A stretch of DNA of 20,668 nucleotides from a virus. Within the stretch, counting starts at the first letter, position 1; every line of letters begins with the position of its first letter. The stretch is taken from the IMG/VR virus record IMGVR_UViG_3300044530_002207, positions 1 to 20,668 of that record; one strand, given 5' to 3'. Made by a program: the position numbers and the translations under genes. The notes beneath the pieces are model-generated. The model saw only the letters and a program-made list of their open reading frames with translations, had not been told where the DNA came from and did not search any database. Shown here piece by piece: positions 1,043 to 17,041 of this stretch.

Positions 1043-1067
1043 TTTGACACGCCCGCCTCGGCGTGTC
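1043..1067 (+). promoter_or_regulatory. TTTGACA motif plus hairpin covering the portal start codon
   Basis: TTTGACA (1043-1049) lies 13 nt before the GTG at 1063. GACACGCC (1046-1053) and GGCGTGTC (1060-1067) form a perfect 8-bp inverted repeat with a 6-nt loop. The left arm overlaps the motif and the right arm contains the start codon. In mRNA this stem would mask the start and could limit portal translation, but that is inference. Confidence 0.55.
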
Positions 1068-2508
1068 CGCAATCAAACCGAATTCAAATAAATCAAACCG
1101 AGGCGGTCCCCGTCCCGGAGCCGGTCGCAAACCCAAAGCCGCCGCCTTCGAGGCCGCCGAGTTCTCCCGCAATCGCGGCCTCATCGTTTTAAATACCCTC
1201 GAGCCCAAGCGCGAAGCCACCCCCGCCACCCGCCTCGAGCTGCTTAAAAAATCCCGCTGGCTTTACAATAACGTCGGCATCGCCTCCTACCTCATCGAGC
1301 ATCTCGCCCAGCGCGCCGTCGGCACCGGCATCGTCCCGCAGGCACGCACCTCCGATCCCGAGTGGAACCGCCGAGCCGAGCGCCTCTTCGAGGACCGCGC
1401 CTGCGCCGAGACGTGGGCATTCGACGCCTCCGCCCAGGTGAATTTCTACGGCGCGCAGTCTCTCATCCTTCGGCAAGTCGCCGTCGATGGCGACTTCTTC
1501 GCCCAGTTCATCCGCACCGAAGCAGGCGGCACCCGCGTCCGCTTCATCGGCGGCGAAGCCATAGGCAGCACCGCCGACTCCTCCGACCGCGCCTACGACG
1601 GCGTCCTGCTCGATAAGTTCGGCGCACCCACTAGCTACCGCGTCATCACCGACCGCGCCAATGGGAAATACCAAGACGTCCCCGCCGCCGACATGCTGCA
1701 CTTTCGCCACGTCCGCCGCAGCGGCTACCCACGCGGCATCTCCTGGCTGCACAACGCCATCATCAATTGCCACGACCTCGCCGAGTATATGGCCTACGAG
1801 AAAGGATCCGCCAAAGCCGGAGCCCAAGTCGCCTTCGCCATCACCAGCGATGAAGCCGTCCGCCTCGGCGGCGGCCTGTCGAATATCCAGAGCGCCGACA
1901 ACCAAGAGATCACCACCGAGACCCTCTACAACGGCACCCTCATTCCCAAGCTCAAGCCCGGCGAATCCATCCAATCCTTCAAGAACGAACACCCCGGCAC
2001 CGCCTTCGAGCCATTCATCCGCACCATCATGGGCGAGATCGCCCGAGGCATCGGCCTTCCCCCCGAGGCCCTCATGGTCTTCGTCGGCACCGCAGGCACC
2101 GAGTTCCGAGGCCTCCTCGAAGTCGCGCAGAACTTCCTCGAGCGTCTCCAGCAAATGCTCGTCGATCAATTTTGCCGCCCCTTCTGGAAATACTGGCTCT
2201 GGCATGAGATCCAATCCGGCAACTTGCCCTACCCCGGAGACGACTGGTGGAGGCACGAATGGGTCACCCCAAAGAAAATCACCGTAGACAACGGACGCGA
2301 CGGCCGTCTCTACGCCCAGCTCCTCGACTCCGGCTACATGAGCTGGGAGCGCTACTGCAACATCCACGGCTTGGATGCCCAAGCTGAGGAAGACGACATC
2401 CTCCATACCTACATCCGCCGCCAGCAAAAATGCGCCGCCCTCGGCCTCAACCCCTCCGACGTCTTCCCAAGCCATGCCTCTTCCATTCTCGGCAACCCCA
2501 TCCCCTGA
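1063..2508 (+). CDS. Phage portal protein, lambda gpB family
   Basis: 481 residues from GTG 1063. Portal proteins form the dodecameric ring at one capsid vertex that DNA passes through. Length, position after terminase and before a ClpP-like protease, and sequence fit the lambda-type portal family. Supporting motifs include W-L-Y-N-N near residue 67, a V-D-G-D-F-F segment, H-F-R-H-V-R-R-S-G-Y-P-R-G-I-S-W-L followed by a helical stretch, and I-A-R-G-I-G-L-P-P-E-A-L. Residues 13-25 read R-G-G-P-R-P-G-A-G-R-K-P-K, a basic Gly/Pro element better known at the N-terminus of small terminases and other DNA-binding phage proteins, and unusual on a portal. There is no SD. The start is marked by TTTGACA 13 nt upstream and lies in a hairpin. 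Confidence 0.9.
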   Translation: MSAIKPNSNKSNRGGPRPGAGRKPKAAAFEAAEFSRNRGLIVLNTLEPKREATPATRLELLKKSRWLYNNVGIASYLIEHLAQRAVGTGIVPQARTSDPEWNRRAERLFEDRACAETWAFDASAQVNFYGAQSLILRQVAVDGDFFAQFIRTEAGGTRVRFIGGEAIGSTADSSDRAYDGVLLDKFGAPTSYRVITDRANGKYQDVPAADMLHFRHVRRSGYPRGISWLHNAIINCHDLAEYMAYEKGSAKAGAQVAFAITSDEAVRLGGGLSNIQSADNQEITTETLYNGTLIPKLKPGESIQSFKNEHPGTAFEPFIRTIMGEIARGIGLPPEALMVFVGTAGTEFRGLLEVAQNFLERLQQMLVDQFCRPFWKYWLWHEIQSGNLPYPGDDWWRHEWVTPKKITVDNGRDGRLYAQLLDSGYMSWERYCNIHGLDAQAEEDDILHTYIRRQQKCAALGLNPSDVFPSHASSILGNPIP

Positions 2509-2662: not shown

Positions 2663-2897
2663 GAGCAAGCCCATCCGCGCCCTCCTTTGCGCGCTCATCG
2701 ACCGCGCCGTCGAGGATCTCCGATCCACCGCCACCTACCGATCTCCGCAGATGAACAACGCCGCCGCCTTCGACAAGGTCACCGCCAGCCATTTCATCGA
2801 TTCCCGCATTTACCGCTGGATGTGCGCTCGCATGCACCTCCCCAGTGCCCGCATCCGCAACGCCGCCTTTGACAACCAAACAGAATCACATGCGTAA
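2586..2897 (+). CDS. Small hypothetical phage protein between portal and protease
   Basis: 103 residues from ATG 2586. From about residue 20 on, codon use is strongly C-ending like the portal and the composition is that of a helical soluble protein (P-I-R-A-L-L-C-A-L-I-D-R-A-V-E-D-L-R, then F-I-D-S-R-I-Y-R-W-M-C-A-R-M-H). The first 20 residues (Ser/Thr-rich) are less certain, so a later start is possible. The last eight bases overlap the protease start at 2890, and its C-terminal codons contain the TTTGACA element (2868-2874) of that start. The family is unknown; the position suggests a head assembly accessory. Confidence 0.6.
   Translation: MIKNHQEYFSSTSQTSSAVDEKLDAESKPIRALLCALIDRAVEDLRSTATYRSPQMNNAAAFDKVTASHFIDSRIYRWMCARMHLPSARIRNAAFDNQTESHA
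2868..2874 (+). promoter_or_regulatory. TTTGACA motif, 15 nt before protease start
   Basis: TTTGACA lies inside the end of the preceding gene, with a 15-nt gap to ATG 2890. The same 15-nt gap recurs at 3483 and 17297. No SD is present and no -10 box follows at 17 nt (GCGTAA). Confidence 0.55.
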
Positions 2898-4014
2898 CTG
2901 GTATGCCCTCACTCCTAAGCCCTCGGTCAGCGAAACCGAAATCTCCATTTTCGACGAGATCGGTATGTATGGCATCAGCGCCAAGCAATTCATCACCGAC
3001 CTCAAGGCCATCCCCGCCACCGACAAGATCGTCCTCAAGATCCACTCCCCAGGCGGAGAAGTCTTCGACGGCAACGCCATTTTCAACGCCTTGCAGCGTC
3101 GCGGCAACGTAGAGGTCCAGATCGAAGGCCTCGCCGCCAGCATGGCCACCGTCATCTCCCTCGCCGGTATGCCAGTCAAGATGGCCGCCAATGGATTTTA
3201 CATGATTCATAATCCCTGGGGCGTTGCCATGGGAGACGCCGCCGAGCTCCGCGACCAAGCCGAGTTGCTCGACAAGATCCGGTCCAACATGGTCGGAGCC
3301 TATGCCGCCAAGAGCGGACAAGACCCCGAGCAGATCCAAGAGTGGATGGACTCCGAGACATGGTTCACCGCCGCCGAAGCCCTCTCCGCCGGATTCATAG
3401 ACGAGATCACCGACACCCTATCCCTCGCCGCCTCCTCCAATAAATTCGCCAGAATGGCGAAATTCAAAAACGCCCCCGCCAATTTGACAGCCCAGCCACA
3501 TCGTATGGAAATAGAAATCACACCCGAGCCCGAGATCGTCGAAGAAGTCATCGCCGATAGCATCGTCAGCGACTCCGTTCCCGCCGAAGAGATCGAGATC
3601 ATCGAAGAGATCGCGCCCGCCGACCAAGTCGAAGTCGCACCAGATGCAACACCCCAGCCCATTGTCAGCCCCGTATCCCTCGCCGCCGCCGATTCGATCT
3701 TGGCAAAATACAACGCCATCTTAGCCGAGCGCGACTCCGCCATCCTCGCCCTCCAAGCCTACTCCGCCAAAGTGGAGACCCTCCGCGACGAGCTCAACGA
3801 AGAGCGCGAATCCTTCGCCCGCCTCGAGCGCAGCCTCGGCCTCTCCGCCGCCCGCGTCGTTCCCATCATTTCCAATGCCGCACCGGAAGCCCTCGACCCC
3901 GTCGCCGAGTATCTCGCCGCCGTAGAGTCCGGCGACCGCCGAGCCGCATCCGCCCTTTTTGAGAAGCACAAAGCTCTCATCTGGCAAGCACGCCAAAAAA
4001 TTTCCAAAGCCTAA
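2890..4014 (+). CDS. Head maturation protease (ClpP-like, S14) fused to scaffold
   Basis: 374 residues. The frame is open back to 2845, but ATG 2890 is preferred because TTTGACA stands 15 nt before it and the sequence matches the family from M-R-N-W-Y. Residues 1-180 form a ClpP-like serine protease: I-H-S-P-G-G (51-56), catalytic Ser84 in L-A-A-S-M-A, His107 in M-I-H-N-P-W-G, and the third triad position near D154/E156 in M-D-S-E-T-W, followed by A-E-A-L-S-A-G-F-I-D-E-I. These proteases cut the scaffold and themselves during prohead maturation. Residues about 206-300 are very Glu/Ile/Val-rich and low complexity; 300-374 form a coiled-coil helix and then a helical end, as expected for a scaffold. 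The lambda gpC/Nu3 arrangement is the parallel. Confidence 0.88.
   Translation: MRNWYALTPKPSVSETEISIFDEIGMYGISAKQFITDLKAIPATDKIVLKIHSPGGEVFDGNAIFNALQRRGNVEVQIEGLAASMATVISLAGMPVKMAANGFYMIHNPWGVAMGDAAELRDQAELLDKIRSNMVGAYAAKSGQDPEQIQEWMDSETWFTAAEALSAGFIDEITDTLSLAASSNKFARMAKFKNAPANLTAQPHRMEIEITPEPEIVEEVIADSIVSDSVPAEEIEIIEEIAPADQVEVAPDATPQPIVSPVSLAAADSILAKYNAILAERDSAILALQAYSAKVETLRDELNEERESFARLERSLGLSAARVVPIISNAAPEALDPVAEYLAAVESGDRRAASALFEKHKALIWQARQKISKA
3483..3489 (+). promoter_or_regulatory. TTTGACA motif, 15 nt before internal scaffold start
   Basis: A perfect TTTGACA inside the protease coding sequence, 15 nt before an in-frame ATG at 3505. It is the only TTTGACA internal to a long gene in the window with an in-frame ATG at that distance, which supports a nested start. 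Confidence 0.55.
3505..4014 (+). CDS. Scaffold protein from internal start within the protease gene
   Basis: ATG 3505 is codon 206 of the protease frame and gives a 169-residue protein that is only the scaffold part. In lambda, Nu3 scaffold is made from an internal start in gene C and shares its C-terminus; this layout is the same. The start falls at the domain boundary, just after the protease domain and a short linker. The product begins with an acidic region of E-I-E-I-T-P-E-P-E-I-V-E-E-V type (1-60). A coiled coil with heptad-like leucines follows (about 85-125), then a basic, Ala-rich helical tail likely to contact capsid protein. The exact start needs protein data. Confidence 0.6.
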   Translation: MEIEITPEPEIVEEVIADSIVSDSVPAEEIEIIEEIAPADQVEVAPDATPQPIVSPVSLAAADSILAKYNAILAERDSAILALQAYSAKVETLRDELNEERESFARLERSLGLSAARVVPIISNAAPEALDPVAEYLAAVESGDRRAASALFEKHKALIWQARQKISKA

Positions 4015-4064: not shown

Positions 4065-4919
4065 ATGGCAAATACATTCGACTCAGCTCTGGTTGCGGAT
4101 TCTATCTCCGCACAGACCAAAACCGTCCTCGCAAACCGCCTCGCGGCGCTCAACATCTTCGCATCGGATTTCTCGTCCGACGTTAAGACGGCTAAAGACA
4201 CCGTCCAGGTTCCGCTCGTCACAGCGGCAGCATCGACACTCACAAACCCGACCAACTTCGAGCCCGGCGGCGGCAACACTGTGGGTAAGATCACGGTCAC
4301 ACTTGATCACCTCTTCCAGCCCTTCGCCATCTCAGCCGCTGAGTTGGCATCCGGTCATCGCCTAGATCGCTTGATCATCTCCAACCTCAATGCACTCGCC
4401 GACAAGATCTGGGCAGTGGCCACCACCCCGATCACCGTAGCAAATTTCGGGGCAGCATCGGTCACCACCGCAGACCTCACAGGCACGAACTTCGCCAACC
4501 TAAAGGCACTCTGGGCCGCAGTGGCCAAGAGCGACCGCAAAGGTCTCGTTCTGAGCCCCGCGCTCTACAGCCAACTCCTGCCCACCAGCAGCCAGAGCCT
4601 CCCGCTCTCCGCTGGCGCTTACGGATTTGATGCCGGTGTCTTCTACGCCAGCAGCTTCGCAGGAGAATCAGGCATGGCAGGATTCGCTTGCTCTCCAGAC
4701 GCAATCGCAATGGCGGCAGCCGCTCCAGCAATCGCAGACGAAGTTCGCAACCAATTCTCGATCAGCGAAGTGGTCACGCTCGAACAGCTCGGCATCTCGG
4801 TGCAGTACAATGTATGGGGTTCCACAGCGAATCGCCAAGTCAACGCATCGCTCGAACTTATGTTCGGTGCAGCGAAAGGCGTGACAGGCGGCACGATGGC
4901 CATCATCGACATCGCTTAA
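4065..4919 (+). CDS. Major capsid protein
   Basis: 284 residues, directly after the protease/scaffold and before head-tail joining genes, which is the capsid slot. It starts M-A-N-T-F-D-S and carries V-Q-V-P-L-V followed by F-E-P-G-G-G-N-T-V-G-K-I-T-V-T-L-D-H, typical of the E-loop and P-domain region of HK97-fold capsid proteins. It ends in a Gly/Thr-rich strand. Codon use differs from neighbours, with more GCA, ACA and TCG, as often seen for the most highly made protein. No decoration protein gene sits between scaffold and capsid. The 5' leader (4025-4064) is CA-rich and lacks an SD. A strong terminator follows. The family assignment rests mainly on position. Confidence 0.8.
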   Translation: MANTFDSALVADSISAQTKTVLANRLAALNIFASDFSSDVKTAKDTVQVPLVTAAASTLTNPTNFEPGGGNTVGKITVTLDHLFQPFAISAAELASGHRLDRLIISNLNALADKIWAVATTPITVANFGAASVTTADLTGTNFANLKALWAAVAKSDRKGLVLSPALYSQLLPTSSQSLPLSAGAYGFDAGVFYASSFAGESGMAGFACSPDAIAMAAAAPAIADEVRNQFSISEVVTLEQLGISVQYNVWGSTANRQVNASLELMFGAAKGVTGGTMAIIDIA

Positions 4920-5760: not shown

Positions 5761-6078
5761 ATGCCATCTACCACTCAAACTTTTGGAATCACCGGCATCT
5801 CGAGCGCCAGCTTGCTCGTCAAGTCGATGGACCACACCAAGTCAGCGCAAAAAACGGAACTCCAAGGGCCGGACGGTGAGACCGTCGCCGTTGGCTATTA
5901 TGGCTTCAAAGAAGAGCTTTCCATATCCGCCGTAGGCGATCTCACAGCAGCGCAAACCGTGGGCGCCACATTGGCTCTCACTGGGGCTCCTACTGGCACT
6001 TGGAAGATCGATTCCATCTCCACCTCTCGCTCGCTCGAGGGCTTTGCCGAAATCCAAATCTCAGCCTCCAACTCATAA
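5761..6078 (+). CDS. Tail tube-like protein, copy 1
   Basis: 105 residues. Its C-terminal half reads L-S-I-S-A-V-G-D-L-T and W-K-I-D-S-I-S-T-S-R-S-L-E-G-F-A-E-I-Q-I-S-A, a beta-rich pattern matching the next gene's A-S-I-S-I-E-G and I-L-V-D-S-V-V-V-S-K-S-S-D-G-F-A-K-V-K-I-A-A. The two are clear paralogues. Small tail tube proteins have this beta-sandwich type of ending, and the position between tail terminator and chaperones fits tube protein V. Here it is about 105-120 residues, shorter than lambda gpV. Which copy forms the tube is not visible. The leader is CA-rich with TTTGACA 27 nt upstream. Confidence 0.6.
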   Translation: MPSTTQTFGITGISSASLLVKSMDHTKSAQKTELQGPDGETVAVGYYGFKEELSISAVGDLTAAQTVGATLALTGAPTGTWKIDSISTSRSLEGFAEIQISASNS

Positions 6079-6082
6079 TATT

Positions 6083-6442
6083 ATGGCCGCAAAATTTTTC
6101 TCCACTCAAACGACCGAATTCGGAATGACCGACGAAGCCGGGATGATGGTTCAGTCGTTCAGCTACGATGTTTCGTCCGACAAAGCCGAGGTCATGGACA
6201 TCACCGGCGACATCGTGCAAACGCACCGCTTCAACAAAAAGGCCTCGATTTCCATCGAAGGCCTTGCGTCCTCATCGGACGTAGAGGTCGGCGACGAGAT
6301 GGCCTCCATTGCCAATACCGCTATGGGGCAACTCGGAGGCACGATCCTTGTGGATTCTGTGGTTGTTTCCAAAAGCTCCGACGGATTCGCCAAGGTCAAA
6401 ATTGCCGCCACGCAATACGACCTCACGCTCACCGCGCAATAA
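6083..6442 (+). CDS. Tail tube-like protein, copy 2 (paralogue)
   Basis: 119 residues from ATG 6083, four nt after the previous stop; the frame is open to 6044, but that part overlaps copy 1. It contains F-G-M-T-D, A-S-I-S-I-E-G and V-V-V-S-K-S-S-D-G-F-A-K-V-K-I-A-A, parallel to copy 1 (F-G-I-T-G, L-S-I-S-A-V-G, I-S-T-S-R-S-L-E-G-F-A-E-I-Q-I-S-A). The N-terminus is longer than copy 1, with a Met-rich stretch. It is followed by an intrinsic terminator (6458-6490). The gene pair may encode tube plus a capping or minor tube protein. Confidence 0.65.
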   Translation: MAAKFFSTQTTEFGMTDEAGMMVQSFSYDVSSDKAEVMDITGDIVQTHRFNKKASISIEGLASSSDVEVGDEMASIANTAMGQLGGTILVDSVVVSKSSDGFAKVKIAATQYDLTLTAQ

Positions 6443-6920: not shown

Positions 6921-7319
6921 ATGAAAACAAAACAAAAACCCACCGACAACGATTTTGCAAAAGACGACGAAGCCCTCCGACTCCAAGGCATGCGCCCCGG
7001 GTCCACCAAAGTCGGCGACCTCAAGCTCCGGCGCTTTGTGCCAGGCACCATCGATATCGTGCAGAGCAACAGCACGGGCAAAAAAGGCAACTTCTGGTCG
7101 GTCGCCGCTTTCGGCTACGTCCACACCGTCCCGCTCGACGAAGTGCTCGAGATCGCAGACAACCCCGACGCCTTCTCCCGCGCCGTCCGTAAATGGCACA
7201 TCGAAAACTTTACGACCCTCGAAGCACAGACCGCGCTCACCGAGGCCGTCAAGCTCGAGTTCGAGCGCATCAACGCATCGGAGTCCACCTCAGCCACGGG
7301 CAACTCAGCGGGAAACTAA
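6921..7319 (+). CDS. Tail assembly chaperone, G-like (unshifted product)
   Basis: 132 residues ending in TAA 7317-7319. Starts M-K-T-K-Q-K, then a mixed region (V-G-D-L-K-L-R-R-F-V-P-G-T-I) and a helical end (A-V-R-K-W-H-I-E-N-F, then E-A-V-K-L-E-F-E-R-I-N-A-S-E-S) with a Ser/Thr/Asn-rich tail. Tail chaperones wrap the tape measure while the tube is built around it; in lambda, G and its frameshifted GT form do this. Here a slippery heptamer precedes the stop, and the gene lies two genes upstream of the tape measure. The leader is A-rich (AAACCAAAACCAAAAAA-ATG) without SD. Family likeness rests on position and the frameshift. Confidence 0.7.
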   Translation: MKTKQKPTDNDFAKDDEALRLQGMRPGSTKVGDLKLRRFVPGTIDIVQSNSTGKKGNFWSVAAFGYVHTVPLDEVLEIADNPDAFSRAVRKWHIENFTTLEAQTALTEAVKLEFERINASESTSATGNSAGN

Positions 7320-7537
7320 ACAGCCCCAACTGGCTCGCATCATATGTTTACCAAGTTGCGAAGATCACTGGTTGGGGCCATCACGCCATTTTATTCGAGG
7401 TCCCATTCACGGCAGGACTGCAACTCCTGCACGCAGACGCCACCGCGCAGGGAGCCCCCAAAGCATGGAAGCGCAATAACACCCCCGCCGCTTTTGACTT
7501 GGCAAGCGATATAGAAGCCGTCTTTGCACGCCTTTAA
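6921..7537 (+). CDS. GT-like fusion product by -1 frameshift at 7310-7316
   Basis: After slipping at GGGAAAC, reading continues in the -1 frame from CTA-AAC and stays open to 7537, adding 73 residues for about 205 in total. The added part looks fully coding: S-P-N-W-L-A-S-Y-V-Y-Q-V-A-K-I-T-G-W-G, then H-A-I-L-F-E-V-P and L-A-S-D-I-E-A-V-F-A-R-L. It has no ATG of its own near its beginning. In lambda the T part recruits tube protein, while G binds the tape measure. This is a canonical tail-chaperone arrangement; slip efficiency cannot be read from sequence. Confidence 0.8.
7310..7378 (+). promoter_or_regulatory. Programmed -1 frameshift signal: GGGAAAC and downstream stem
   Basis: The heptamer G-GGA-AAC (7310-7316) is in the right frame for XXXYYYZ slippage and directly precedes the TAA. 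Six nt later GCCCCAAC (7323-7330) pairs perfectly with GTTGGGGC (7371-7378), extendable by U-G, G-U and G-C pairs. The 40-nt loop could also form a pseudoknot. Lambda uses GGGAAAG in the same place. Confidence 0.85.
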
Positions 7538-7544
7538 ATAAAAC

Positions 7545-8324
7545 ATGGCAACTCCAAGCATACAAATCGACGACACCAAGTTTCTTCGGAAAATGAAGAA
7601 ATACGAAATGCTTGTCGGCAAAGAGGTCGGCCAGCTTGTCAATAATGCCGCCCGGCTCTGCGCGCTCGAGTGCATGCGCTACACCGCGCCGTCAGGCACA
7701 AGCGGGACCTCCAAGCAAGCAGGAGAGAAGCAAGTCGCCGGAGACATCCGCAGCATATTTACCATCATTAATCCAACCTGGTGGAAAGAGCTAAAAAAAG
7801 GCACCGCATTCAGCTCCGGCGGCGCGGCACTCCATAGCAAAAGCGGCATTGTGTGGGCGACCGATACGCAGACGCAAATTTCCGATGTCGGTGCAGCCAA
7901 GTCTTGGCACAAATCGCACAAGACCGCCGCCGGGCAGACCACTCGCCTCGGCCTCCTTAACCGTGCTCTCATTAAGCAAGCAACCTATCGCAAGTATCTC
8001 AAAGAGACGCTGAAAAAAGTCGGCATCGCCAAGGCAGGCTGGGCCATTGTGGCCGAGAAGTGCAACGCCGACGTGCGCGAGCCCCTCAAGGGCGTGCCGT
8101 CATGGGTCCAGCGGAATATGCCCAAAGCTGCGGGCATGGTCGCCGCCATGCAAAAAGAAGGCATGGGATTTTCCATCGCGATTACCAACTCTGTGTCCTA
8201 CGCCCGCGCCACCCTCGATGCCGGTGGAGAATCTTTTGCCGTCAACCTGGCGAAGAAAAAAATGATGAGCATGATGTCCCACGCCATTAAAGCGGAAAAA
8301 GCCAAACAAGCCGAACTACAATGA
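7545..8324 (+). CDS. Minor tail protein (gpZ/HK97 gp10-like position)
   Basis: 259 residues from ATG 7545, just after the GT frame ends at 7537. The next gene overlaps it by ATGA (8321-8324). The N-terminus (I-Q-I-D-D-T-K-F-L-R-K-M-K-K-Y) and a K/R-rich helical tail (K-K-K-M-M-S-M-M-S-H-A-I-K-A-E-K-A-K-Q-A-E) flank an Ala/Gly-rich centre with R-G-like turns. The shape recalls HK97 gp10/lambda gpZ minor tail proteins, but those usually precede the tube genes, so the position between chaperone and tape measure is unusual. I cannot assign it firmly. Confidence 0.55.
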   Translation: MATPSIQIDDTKFLRKMKKYEMLVGKEVGQLVNNAARLCALECMRYTAPSGTSGTSKQAGEKQVAGDIRSIFTIINPTWWKELKKGTAFSSGGAALHSKSGIVWATDTQTQISDVGAAKSWHKSHKTAAGQTTRLGLLNRALIKQATYRKYLKETLKKVGIAKAGWAIVAEKCNADVREPLKGVPSWVQRNMPKAAGMVAAMQKEGMGFSIAITNSVSYARATLDAGGESFAVNLAKKKMMSMMSHAIKAEKAKQAELQ

Positions 8325-10840
8325 GCGATATTACAGTCACCCTCGGCGCCAAAGACGAAGGCCTCAGCAACTCTTTAAAGAGCGTCACGAATAGCATCAA
8401 CGATTTTGGAGCCAAGGGCGCAGGAGCCGCCAATGGATTTGATATGTCTTTCGGCAAGATCGGCCTCGCCGCAGGCGTTGCCGGTGCCGCCGTCAAGGTC
8501 GGCATGATGGCTATTGAGGCCGCCACCGCCGCCGCCCGCGCTGTGGTCGATCAATTCGGCGCAGCCATTGACCTAGGCGGCAAGCTCAATGATCTCTCCT
8601 CCCGCACCGGCGAGAGCGCTGGCAATCTCCTCATTCTCGAGCGCGCCTTCACGAATACCGGAGTCAGCGCCGATGCTGTCGGCAGCTCCATGAACAAAAT
8701 GCAAAAGTTCATGGTGGACGCCGCTCAAGGCGGAGCCGCTCAATCCGACGCCATGTCCAGACTCGGCATCACCATGGACGATCTCGCAGGGAAGACACCC
8801 ACAGACCAAATGGGCGTATTCGCGCAGCGCATCTCTTCTATTCAAGATCCAGCGCAGCGCGCCGAGGCCGCAATGTCGATCTTCGGTAAATCCGGCGGAG
8901 AGCTTCTTCCTATTCTTCAAAATTTCAGCGGAGAGATCGAAGGGGCCAAAGGGCAACTCGGCGGACTCCCAGGCGTAATGGATCGCTCCGCCGCCGCCTT
9001 CGACTCAGTGGGCGATAACATGGCCGCTCTTAACAACAAGGTGCTCGAGTTTGCCGCCGGATTTTTAGAAAAAGCCTTACCAGCCTTGAACGTATTCACT
9101 GCCGCCCTCAGTGGCGTGGATGCTGCCGGTTGGGGGAAGGCCACCATGGACATAGTCGTCCGCTTGGCAGACCGACTCATTGGGGCTTTTAATGATCCCA
9201 TCGCCACCATTAAGGCCTACGGCACCTCGTTCGAGGTCGCAGTAAAGACTTTCGGCAATGCGTTTTTTAATACGTCCTCCACGGTCATTGATTTTTTGGT
9301 CAAGTCGATGGAGACTAACTTGGCATCAGCGGTCAGAGCCTATATTGGCAGCGCGCTCACCGATGCCGCGCTCACATTTGGGCGACACATCACCGAGGCG
9401 CTCATGACATTTTCCGCAGCGGTCTCCGAGTTGCCGGGCTTCCAAGCCGCAGGCGACCGGATGTTTCAGGTGCTCGACGCCGCAAATACCAAGCTCGGCG
9501 AAGCTCAGATTGCCAACATGGGCGAGACCGCCAAAGCCGCCGCTCTCGTGACTCAAGAATTTGATAAAACCGCCGCAAAAACTCGCGTATTTAAAGAGGA
9601 TTTTTTCGGAGCCGAAGACGCCACCAAGCGAATGAATGCTGAGATGGCGGCCATCGAGGCCAGCGGCAAAGCGACCCGCACATCGATGGAGACAGCCATG
9701 ATCCCAGCCACCGAAGGCGCAAAACAAGTCACGCAGGAACTCAATACGCAACTCGACACCGTCACAAAAATCCAAGCCGCCAAGCAAGCTGAACTCCAGT
9801 TTGAGCTCGATCTCGCCACCGCCAAAGCGACCGGCAACCAAGCCGAACAAAAAGCCCTCGAGGAGCGCAAGGTATGGCTCGACGCGTGGAAAAAATCCAC
9901 CGAATCCGGCATGGGCGAAGCGAACGCCAACGCCTTTGCCGACGCCATGCTCAGGACCAAGCAGATCACCGACGCCATTTCGGGCAAAGACATCATCATC
10001 ACCGTCACCACCACGGTCGAAGACAAGCGCTGGAAGACCCTTCTGGCCGAGATCAATAGTGCCACGGCCACGCAGCATTCCATCGATGTGGCCCTCAAGC
10101 TCACCGGGCAGTCCGATCTCACTGGAGCCCGCAAGATCCTTGGGCTGATGGAAAGCAAAAATATCGAGGTTGGGATGAAGACCGCCGGGGTGGACTCAGT
10201 CGAAAATTTGCAGAAAATCCTCTACAGCCTGCCCACTCAGAAGGATGTGGATTTGGCGATCAAACTGACAGGCAAAGACGATTGGAAGTCCGCCGCCGAT
10301 GAGGTTAGAAACCTCGCTCCAACCAAAGAAGTTTTACTCACTCTAAAGGAGCAAGGATTTGCGTCGCTGAAAGAATACAAGGAGTCCATCGCCGCCATCG
10401 GAAACGGAGCCACTGCCGAGATCGTCGCAAAAGACATGGGCGGATCTTTGGCCGATGTGCAAGCCGCCGTTTATGCCATCGTTCAGTCTGGCAAAGCGCC
10501 AACCGAGGTCAAAGTGAAGGCCACCGCAGACACAACCGCCGCCGCCGCCAGCATCGCCGAGCTGGGAGCAAAGCCCGTGGATCTCGTCGCCAAGTTCGAC
10601 ATGGCCGCCTTCGCCGACTCGCTCGCTTCGCTCAAGTCCGCCGCCGCAGCCGCATTTTCCGAGCCCTTTAAATTTAACCTCACCGACTCTGTCCCGAACT
10701 TCGGAACTGGCACCTCACCGATGCCCGAGCCCCCCGCCTCGGACACCAGCATTTTCTCGGAACTAAAATCCCTCGTCTCCGACATTAAAACCCTCGTCAC
10801 CACCCTGAGCAACAAGCTCCCCAGCCCTGTACTGACATGA
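8321..10840 (+). CDS. Tail tape measure protein
   Basis: 839 residues, by far the longest gene here, directly after the chaperones, which is the tape measure slot. The protein sets tail length and is ejected through the membrane. Residues about 45-85 are Gly/Ala-rich and hydrophobic (G-L-A-A-G-V-A-G-A-A-V-K-V-G-M-M-A), then D-L-S-S-R-T-G-E-S, typical of the N-terminal conserved part, and a second hydrophobic stretch near 240-265. A long helical middle (about 340-540) follows. Residues about 556-760 carry eight strand-helix repeats of roughly 28 residues with cores like I-D-V-A-L-K-L-T-G and V-D-L-A-I-K-L-T-G, then A-x-x-x-L. The C-terminus is Pro/Ser-rich. It overlaps both neighbours by ATGA, as in a tightly coupled operon. 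Confidence 0.9.
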   Translation: MSDITVTLGAKDEGLSNSLKSVTNSINDFGAKGAGAANGFDMSFGKIGLAAGVAGAAVKVGMMAIEAATAAARAVVDQFGAAIDLGGKLNDLSSRTGESAGNLLILERAFTNTGVSADAVGSSMNKMQKFMVDAAQGGAAQSDAMSRLGITMDDLAGKTPTDQMGVFAQRISSIQDPAQRAEAAMSIFGKSGGELLPILQNFSGEIEGAKGQLGGLPGVMDRSAAAFDSVGDNMAALNNKVLEFAAGFLEKALPALNVFTAALSGVDAAGWGKATMDIVVRLADRLIGAFNDPIATIKAYGTSFEVAVKTFGNAFFNTSSTVIDFLVKSMETNLASAVRAYIGSALTDAALTFGRHITEALMTFSAAVSELPGFQAAGDRMFQVLDAANTKLGEAQIANMGETAKAAALVTQEFDKTAAKTRVFKEDFFGAEDATKRMNAEMAAIEASGKATRTSMETAMIPATEGAKQVTQELNTQLDTVTKIQAAKQAELQFELDLATAKATGNQAEQKALEERKVWLDAWKKSTESGMGEANANAFADAMLRTKQITDAISGKDIIITVTTTVEDKRWKTLLAEINSATATQHSIDVALKLTGQSDLTGARKILGLMESKNIEVGMKTAGVDSVENLQKILYSLPTQKDVDLAIKLTGKDDWKSAADEVRNLAPTKEVLLTLKEQGFASLKEYKESIAAIGNGATAEIVAKDMGGSLADVQAAVYAIVQSGKAPTEVKVKATADTTAAAASIAELGAKPVDLVAKFDMAAFADSLASLKSAAAAAFSEPFKFNLTDSVPNFGTGTSPMPEPPASDTSIFSELKSLVSDIKTLVTTLSNKLPSPVLT

Positions 10841-11568
10841 CGCTCTACACATCCTTAAGCGATTGGATTCCGCAGCCTGGTCGCATCACAAGAACATGGA
10901 GCAGCGGCCTTGTCCTCCTCCAGCAGGAATTCATCGGCAATCTCGACACCCTGGGGCCTGTCGCCGTCCCCGGCGATCCGTTCCCCGCCGACGATGCAGG
11001 CACCAGCGCCAAAGTCTACGGCCTGCCCGAATACCGCGAGCTGGGCAACGGTCTCCAATCCGCCACTGTCAGCGCCTACGGCCTCGCCCCCGGCAGCGCA
11101 GGCGTGCAAAAAGTTGAGTCTCGCGGGGCTATAGCCTTGCCCTATTCGCAGGGTCTATCTTTTGGTGCAGCTTATTACCACCCAGACAACGGCGAACCTA
11201 GGTTTATTTCAAAAAAATTTCTTATTGTCGTAGAGTTTTCCAAAGAAGTCCGTAGTGGGCGGGGCGATATAAATTTGATGACTACCAACCTCACTTCTCT
11301 TGAAATATACGCTGGACAACAAATCGGCTATGCCGCCGCAGGCACCAAAATCACAAGCAGAAGTTTTAGTTCAGTTGAAATTTTTGGCCCTGGCCCATCG
11401 GGCGCGCCATTCGCAAATGTCTCAGCGTCCATTCAATATGCCATCGCAAAAAGCCTGACTGAGTTCCAGTATTACGGAGACATTTGGGAGGAGCGCGCCA
11501 CTTTTATTCCCAGCTTGTTTCCCGTAGGCTTCGACTATCTAAACGATCCGCCGCCCCCTTCATCATAG
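10837..11568 (+). CDS. Hypothetical tail protein after tape measure
   Basis: 243 residues; ATG 10837 overlaps the tape measure stop by ATGA. The first 90 residues are GC-rich in codons and contain W-I-P-Q-P-G-R-I-T-R-T-W-S-S-G. From about 11100 to 11540 the DNA is more AT-rich, with less C-ending codons, hinting at a recent exchange of the C-terminal part. It ends Y-L-N-D-P-P-P-P-S-S. The position (first gene after tape measure) suits a distal tail or tail-tip protein, but I see no known domain. Confidence 0.6.
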   Translation: MTLYTSLSDWIPQPGRITRTWSSGLVLLQQEFIGNLDTLGPVAVPGDPFPADDAGTSAKVYGLPEYRELGNGLQSATVSAYGLAPGSAGVQKVESRGAIALPYSQGLSFGAAYYHPDNGEPRFISKKFLIVVEFSKEVRSGRGDINLMTTNLTSLEIYAGQQIGYAAAGTKITSRSFSSVEIFGPGPSGAPFANVSASIQYAIAKSLTEFQYYGDIWEERATFIPSLFPVGFDYLNDPPPPSS

Positions 11569-15769: not shown

Positions 15770-17041
15770 ATGGCCCTCATACTATCTGCCGCCACAGGCA
15801 ACTTTAACGCAACCGCGACATGGGTCGGTGGAGTTGTGCCTACGGTTGGCGACGAGGCCCGCGCCAGCACCGGCCACACAATCACGATCACAGCCAATGT
15901 CACTTGTGACGAAGTTTCAAACGCAGGCAGTGGCCTTTTCACACTGAATGACGGCGTCACTCTCACGGCAAATGTCACCAATAAAACGACTACCGCCGCC
16001 CGCGCCTGTATTCAATTTTTTGGGTCCAGTGCAACAATCGTCGGAAATGTAACGAGCGGGCCAGGGACAAACACGATAGGTATTAACAACGTGAATGCCG
16101 GAACCGTCAATGTTACTGGGAATGTGACAGGCGGCAGTGGGTCTAATGCGTATTGCCTTTATAATTCATCGACTGGGAGGTTCGTCGTCACCGGCAATGT
16201 TACAGGCGGGTCTGGAGGGTCGGCCAACGCAGTGCAGGGTCAAGGAAACGGGAACATTACAATAACTGGAAATGTCACCGCTTTTGGGGGCCTTGGCGTC
16301 AATAATGTCGGAACTGGAACGGTTACGATTACGGGAAATGTCCTCGCTGCGGGGTCTTTGGGCGTCAGCAACGCATCAAGTGGAACGGTTACGATTACGG
16401 GAAATTCCACAGGCGCAGGAGCAGCAGGCGTCAACAATGCCTCAACTGGAACAGTTACAATAACTGGAATTGCCACGGCTGGGAACACCGGAGCAGGCGT
16501 CAACAACGCATCAACAGGAACAATTAATCTGGGGCGAGCAAAGGCTAACGCCTACGGGCCGGGTAACACATCTGGCTTGTCTCCGACTCCCGGCGCATCA
16601 AACGCAGGACTTGGAATCATCGAAATCCAAGAAATCGAATACGGCACTTTCGGAATGTCTCCAATAAGCGGCACAGGCATCCGCCTCAAAAAAGCCAACA
16701 CCAATGTCGCCGTCTTTAATTACTGCGACACCGCAGGCGCGAAAACCCTCATCGACGCCACGCAGAACGCCGCAATGCCAGCCGCCACCGATGTCCGCAA
16801 CGGCGTGAGCTACGCCAGCGGAGCGTTGACGGGATCGGCATATATCCCAGGGGCGTCAAGTGTGGCAAGCGGAGTCCCCGTAGGGTCAACCACCGGCACG
16901 GCAGTCCTCACCGCCGCCGCCGTGTGGGAAACACTTACCAGCAGCCTCACCACCGTCGGAAGTATTGGTGAACGGTTAAAAAACACCGCCACCGTAGCCA
17001 GCACCGGCGACCAGATCGCGGCCGCCCTCACCGCACCATAA
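15770..17041 (+). CDS. Repeat-rich beta-solenoid-like tail or adhesin protein
   Basis: 423 residues. The N-terminus (A-T-G-N-F-N-A-T-A-T-W-V-G-G-V-V-P-T-V-G-D-E-A, then G-H-T-I-T-I) resembles the 'tW.GG..P..gD' beginning of beta-helical surface proteins. Seven Gly/Asn/Thr repeats of 22-25 residues follow, with cores like T-V-T-I-T-G-N-V and G-V-N-N-A-S-T-G, from about residue 89 to 253. Each would be one turn of a beta-solenoid. The C-terminal third (V-R-N-G-V-S-Y-A-S-G-A-L-T-G, then P-V-G-S-T-T-G-T-A-V-L-T) is a region I associate with phage fibre ends. The repeats are visible in DNA. The next ATG overlaps the stop (TAATG). A receptor-binding or biofilm-binding role is inferred. Confidence 0.72.
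   Translation: MALILSAATGNFNATATWVGGVVPTVGDEARASTGHTITITANVTCDEVSNAGSGLFTLNDGVTLTANVTNKTTTAARACIQFFGSSATIVGNVTSGPGTNTIGINNVNAGTVNVTGNVTGGSGSNAYCLYNSSTGRFVVTGNVTGGSGGSANAVQGQGNGNITITGNVTAFGGLGVNNVGTGTVTITGNVLAAGSLGVSNASSGTVTITGNSTGAGAAGVNNASTGTVTITGIATAGNTGAGVNNASTGTINLGRAKANAYGPGNTSGLSPTPGASNAGLGIIEIQEIEYGTFGMSPISGTGIRLKKANTNVAVFNYCDTAGAKTLIDATQNAAMPAATDVRNGVSYASGALTGSAYIPGASSVASGVPVGSTTGTAVLTAAAVWETLTSSLTTVGSIGERLKNTATVASTGDQIAAALTAP
16050..16530 (+). repeat. Tandem repeats coding for solenoid turns
   Basis: Units of about 66 bp, with recurring GGAACGGTTACGATTACGGG and GGCGTCAACAATGC-like cores. The later four or five units are closest to each other. This supports recent internal duplication in the gene at 15770. 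Confidence 0.6.

Follow-up and report, generated by a model that had tools for sequence, protein, structure and literature searches.

The adjacent reading frames G and T of this virus almost certainly form a chaperone frameshift of the lambda G/GT type, in a family that lies outside Pfam and PHROGs, and it can be held with high confidence that a programmed -1 ribosomal frameshift gives a tail assembly chaperone in two lengths. The window, i.e., the whole stretch of DNA analyzed here, is the 20,668-base virus record IMGVR_UViG_3300044530_002207 from IMG/VR, and its features are collected in Table 1. Slippage itself, its frequency and the chaperone function are what we infer. Most ribosomes would read G_GGA_AAC and halt at the adjacent TAA, releasing G (132 aa), while a minority would move one base back at the heptamer, with GGA and AAC re-pairing as GGG and AAA. 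Aided by a stem 6 nt downstream, the slipped ribosomes would translate 73 more codons and yield a G-T fusion of 205 aa. By analogy with lambda, G would bind the tape measure protein, and tail tube subunits would be recruited by the T domain of G-T.

Table 1. Features of the window that bear on the G/T frameshift, with the basis of each assignment.
Feature	Position	Strand	Basis
Portal protein	1063..2508	+	PF05136 E 1.5e-51
ClpP-type head maturation protease	2890..4014	+	PF00574 E 6e-33; phrog_133 E 4.3e-72
Candidate tail tube protein	6083..6442	+	position; phrog_2005 (minor tail) E 0.034 only
Gene G, predicted tail assembly chaperone short form, 132 aa	6921..7319	+	0-frame ORF
Slippery heptamer GGGAAAC, read G_GGA_AAC	7310..7316	+	direct reading; X_XXY_YYZ phase
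T part, -1 frame	7316..7537	+	73 codons past the slippage point, ending at TAA 7535-7537; taken as G-T fusion
TAA stop of G	7317..7319	+	direct reading; adjoins last base of heptamer
Downstream stem, 5' arm	7323..7333	+	window fold, stem alignment
Downstream stem, 3' arm	7368..7378	+	window fold, stem alignment
259-aa protein between T and tape measure	7545..8324	+	ORF; matches in 56 fetched loci
Tail length tape measure protein	8321..10840	+	PHROG tape-measure families; phrog_2276 5.4e-11

The geometry of the site can be read directly from the window. From its ATG at 6921, the G frame ends in the codons GCG GGA AAC before its TAA, and the -1 frame entered at 7316 opens with CTA AAC AGC CCC AAC TGG. 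The original prediction had placed the heptamer in the correct frame and in contact with the stop codon, a stem 6 nt beyond it and a run of 73 coding-like codons in the -1 frame, all of which is borne out: the spacer between heptamer and stem is 6 nt, the predicted fold pairs G7323-G7333 with C7368-C7378 over 11 base pairs (U-G and G-U included), and the -1 frame stays open up to its own TAA with substitutions biased to third codon positions. Taken alone, the GGGAAAC heptamer is unremarkable in the window, where it occurs four times on both strands vs. 2.96 expected. Among the 15 window frames scanned, 20 in-phase XXXYYYZ heptamers can be found, and the GGGAAAC of G is the sole one abutting a stop. 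It is the position of the heptamer and its conservation in relatives, and not the window alone, that raise the site above chance.

Relatives were taken from IMG/VR with G, T, the head protease (Table 1) and the putative capsid protein as queries; as most were fetched via the last two, they were not picked for the signal. A scan of genome contigs with the head protease gave two remote loci, labelled Piscirickettsiaceae and Emcibacter, which are uninformative as to the host. Profile HMMs of G and T were applied to every plus-strand frame in 163 sequences (window and loci, overlapping loci of the same contig included) and matched 80 and 95 of them, respectively. The 80 G loci reduce to 47 distinct junctions once identical ones and one locus ending at the G stop (L067) are dropped. 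The T frame lies in -1 relative to G in 46 of these 47 junctions, L005 (+1) being the exception. The search for the same heptamer in relatives, which had been proposed as a check, returned a strict XXXYYYZ abutting the G stop in 40 of the 47 junctions, namely GGGAAAC (20), GGGAAAG (11), AAAAAAC (5), CCCAAAC (3), and GGGGGGG (1). With two non-standard GGGGGAG sites counted, stop and slip site are contiguous in 42 junctions, and an in-phase XXXYYYZ is present within the G/T overlap in 45. In the five junctions with another placement (L111, L118, L121, L125, and L127), a CCCAAAA or A-run occurs in phase about 18 nt before the stop.

It can be asked whether the T frame is open by chance or has decayed to a remnant, the heptamer being coincidental. 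Such a reading could draw on how common GGGAAAC is in the window and on a frame-breaking deletion in L005, and it is nonetheless extremely improbable given the -1 phase of 46 of 47 junctions, the third-position bias and the similarity of T across 49 sequences. As for the heptamer, coincidence can be rejected: among 1591 other distinct frames of the same loci (at least 120 codons, other than G/T), an XXXYYYZ precedes the stop in 15, and GGGAAA in none. The conservation of heptamer and -1 frame, on which the frameshift reading had been made to depend, is found for both, and that reading stands. Regarding L005 (region 4387-4430 of this locus; its contig, IMGVR_UViG_3300042396_000996, also carries L015, L018, and L097), a 34-nt deletion shifts T to +1 relative to G; the loop between the stem arms is gone and most of the arms are kept. 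This deletion is confined to a single contig and may reflect either a real mutant or an artefact of assembly or amplification at the hairpin.

The heptamer changes in its letters while its predicted slipperiness stays. On a quick tree of G plus T built without the heptamer codons, in which some branches are long, the minimum number of changes is at least eight for heptamer identity, six for stop identity and one for abutting vs. upstream placement, and GGGAAAG is found in two separate clades. In the 0 frame, the heptamer imposes GGA, used for 63 of the 299 Gly codons across eight genes of the window, and before it a G, the last base of 18% of codons, so that the encoded amino acids by themselves would not call for it. 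Another 15 distinct loci, picked up by the T profile alone, all carry GGGAAAG or CCCAAAC in phase, with 0, 3, 9 or 39 nt between it and the stop that ends the upstream frame (117-208 codons); the 0 frame is assumed there and not based on homology. The two GGGGGAG sites (L033 and L074), each before TAG, belong to a two-member clade beside a GGGAAAG clade; slippage there could involve re-pairing of GAG with GGA, which would make it an unusual shift site.

That T is translated as the continuation of G is supported by where its conservation begins. The conserved T sequence starts at the junction (LNSPNWLASYVY...), from the first residue on, and the 49 sequences chosen by us for the T alignment are 19-97% identical to the window copy (the G alignment covers 44 of the 47 junctions). 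Between the window and ten relatives, codons of the -1 frame differ most often in their third position. The competing view that T is a separate overlapping gene with its own start codon, translated without any frameshift, is very unlikely. It would find a start in the window at ATG 7193, which lies in the T frame inside G, and some upstream T-frame ATG, GTG or TTG in 22 of the 47 junctions. Against this, ATG 7193 is missing from the T frame of the three closest relatives of the window (L002-L004), and in the other 25 junctions the T frame offers no ATG, GTG or TTG ahead of the G stop; four of these (L039, L042, L049, and L082) have a T frame whose opening lies just 7-10 nt ahead of that stop. 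Conservation that starts at the junction also speaks against a gene beginning within G, and a separate gene would have no need for a slippery heptamer that is kept while its letters change. An independent start, which had been named as an observation that would overturn the frameshift, can thus be rejected for most of the family as far as ATG, GTG, and TTG are concerned; non-standard starts could still be used.

The downstream stem is weak on the window alone and well supported by the alignment. In the window, it does not exceed chance (z -0.74): equally good folds arise in 38 of 200 dinucleotide shuffles and in 27 of 200 synonymous recodings. The stem alignment comprises 37 of the 47 junctions in 30 distinct rows, without L005 (deletion), the CCCAAAC clade (L020, L045, and L050), the five loci with the slip site about 18 nt upstream, and L130. 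In it, 95.5% of the cells are paired and 17 cells have both sides changed, with exchanges of G-C for C-G and of A-U for G-C. None of 500 shuffles reaches the observed pairing, number of double-change cells or covariation score; two further measures, the number of pairs with a double change (58/500) and of further pair types (321/500), are not clearly above shuffles. When the partner is slid by 1 to 3 columns, pairing falls to 23-61%. Recoding with T-frame synonyms gives a mean z of -1.57 (about -4.6 to +0.7) over 47 related and hence non-independent loci, with z at or above 0 in four (L024, L086, L121, and L127), so that the peptide appears to account for part of the stem but not all of it. 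In the same region, another stem is predicted for the CCCAAAC clade. Among lambda-type G/GT frameshifts, downstream RNA structure is common though not universal.

A change of frame during transcription, by polymerase slippage, has also to be considered. Homopolymer runs such as AAAAAAC and GGGGGGG in some relatives could favor it, but GGGAAAC, GGGAAAG, and CCCAAAC contain no long run and fit tandem tRNA slippage instead, and a covarying stem begins about 6 nt downstream of the site. We regard this explanation as having a negligible chance of being right, and keep to ribosomal frameshifting.

With regards to gene context, the late region of the window is siphophage-like, with portal, ClpP-type protease, putative capsid and small tail genes followed by G, T, the gene at 7545-8324 and the tape measure gene. 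G/T thus sits between the tail tube candidate, assigned by position, and the tape measure gene, assigned by PHROG match. This position, the frames and the helical AlphaFold2 model of G (pLDDT 76) are consistent with a chaperone role. Neither Pfam nor PHROGs gives a useful match for G or a family for T, Rfam has no match in the window, a sequence-profile search of the PDB gives nothing convincing for G or T, and no named relative turns up among 50,697 phage records searched with G by tblastn. Homology to lambda G and T is not detectable by hhalign (probabilities of 0.2 and 0.3% against the window family). Foldseek gives no match at E <= 0.001, whether for G (PDB, BFVD) or for T (BFVD); several chaperone-named entries appear only at E 0.8 or worse. 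In a second-look structural alignment of G (VIA-align), the top two rows are YqbN (3klu, Z 4.6), which we take to be a tail chaperone relative, and the HK97 chaperone (2ob9, Z 3.9); both likenesses are weak, at about 10% identity, and the Foldseek E for 3klu is 4.4.

Several features of the site can be found in known systems. In lambda, G/GT likewise lies before the tape measure gene and uses the hexamer GGGAAA in the -1 direction; the tape measure protein is described as bound by gpG, and the major tail protein by the T domain of gpGT (PMC5009743). However, the lambda heptamer is GGGAAAG, and its G stop, read in the lambda sequence, lies 15 nt past it, whereas in the window the stop abuts GGGAAAC. 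Unlike lambda, the window also has a single gene that separates T from the tape measure gene, an arrangement reported for HK97, SPP1, and KL1. A close counterpart by published description is Burkholderia phage KL1, where GGGAAAC is predicted directly before the TGA of gp18/gp19, together with a stem-loop, and a gene intervenes ahead of the tape measure gene (PMC3483164). Heptamer, abutting stop, stem-loop and intervening gene are shared, the stop being TGA in KL1 vs. TAA in the window. The stop-abutting GGGAAAC arrangement is therefore not new, having been published as a prediction for KL1.

The same heptamers recur elsewhere. GGGAAAC is given for Caulobacter phage Colossus and AAAAAAC for its relatives of the phiCbK type (PMC3556154), and GGGAAAC, AAAAAAC, and GGGAAAG are listed as tail-chaperone shift sites of the haloarchaeal viruses HCTV-1, -2, and -5 (PMC5009743); taken together, these phages and viruses have three heptamers in common with the window family. 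The original prediction had singled out the heptamer as ending in C rather than G, which is correct, but this is no departure from reported sites, as HCTV-1, Colossus, and KL1 illustrate. Its view that the whole arrangement fits tail-chaperone slippage gains support from the heptamer and -1 frame conserved in relatives. In published passages where it forms part of a ribosome-binding-site string (PMC3091744) or a terminator (PMC6316719), GGGAAAC is not a shift site.

The distance of the slip site from the stop deserves separate attention. For phage frameshifts, the mean distance is given as 26 nt in the SEA-PHAGES training set and 36 nt in the Xu set (PMC10885494), and a distance of 0 nt in 42 of 47 junctions is thus on the short side for a whole family. 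Since the stop abuts the slip site in these junctions though the heptamer, the identity of the stop and the C-terminus of G all vary, we tentatively propose that the stop is itself part of the signal, a proposal more likely to fail than to hold. In a bacterial system with a modified HIV site, a stop after a -1 site is described as bringing in competition with release factor if slippage is post-translocational, and Rous sarcoma and barley yellow dwarf viruses are named as natural cases with a stop after the heptamer (PMC4373837); there, as here, the stop is the codon after the heptamer, in eukaryotic viruses and unrelated genes. If the proposal were true, slippage would follow translocation, when the stop occupies the A site and release factor competes, and the ratio of G to G-T would follow release-factor supply. 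In the wider family an abutting stop is not essential, because it lies about 18 nt away in five junctions and 3-39 nt away in some T-only loci.

A named phage carrying a homologous site is Akkermansia phage Moulinsart (ON453896), in which the family HMMs match both G (E 4.5e-7) and T (E 1.8e-10). Here AAAAAAC at 11081-11087, in place of GGGAAAC, abuts a TAG and T lies in the -1 frame. The deposit has two hypothetical CDS, 10632-11090 and 11120-11332, the second of which, that of T, starts 33 nt past the frameshift site. Judging from the sequence, this is probably an unannotated frameshift. Verrucomicrobia phage P8625 has no match to the family HMMs. Moulinsart is mentioned among the induced prophages of the OMM12 mouse consortium, its host being A. 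muciniphila, with YL44 as the cultured strain (PMC10197239), and this listing as an induced prophage makes it a laboratory test system. The family as a whole adds a divergent G/GT chaperone, unseen by Pfam and PHROGs, from an uncultured phage group, and provides a natural series of interchangeable heptamers with abutting stop (GGGAAAC, GGGAAAG, AAAAAAC, CCCAAAC, and GGGGGAG) that could serve to probe how bacterial -1 slippage competes with termination.

Some observations were made on other genes of the window. For the 259-aa protein encoded between T and the tape measure gene, no family was found in Pfam or PHROGs. Its relatedness differs from that of its neighbors: L008 shares about 76% identity with the window in G and yet only 26% in this protein, and L020 is 54% identical there with a very divergent G, which suggests module exchange. 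Upstream of G, the adjacent small genes at 5761-6078 and 6083-6442 encode proteins that are 30% identical to each other (E 1e-4), possibly through tandem duplication of a tail tube-like gene; fetched loci matching them number 14 and 36, respectively. Further downstream, the translation of 15770-17041 is a 423-aa protein with many GNVTGGSG- or GTVTITGN-like repeat units, probably a repeat protein of the tail fibre type.
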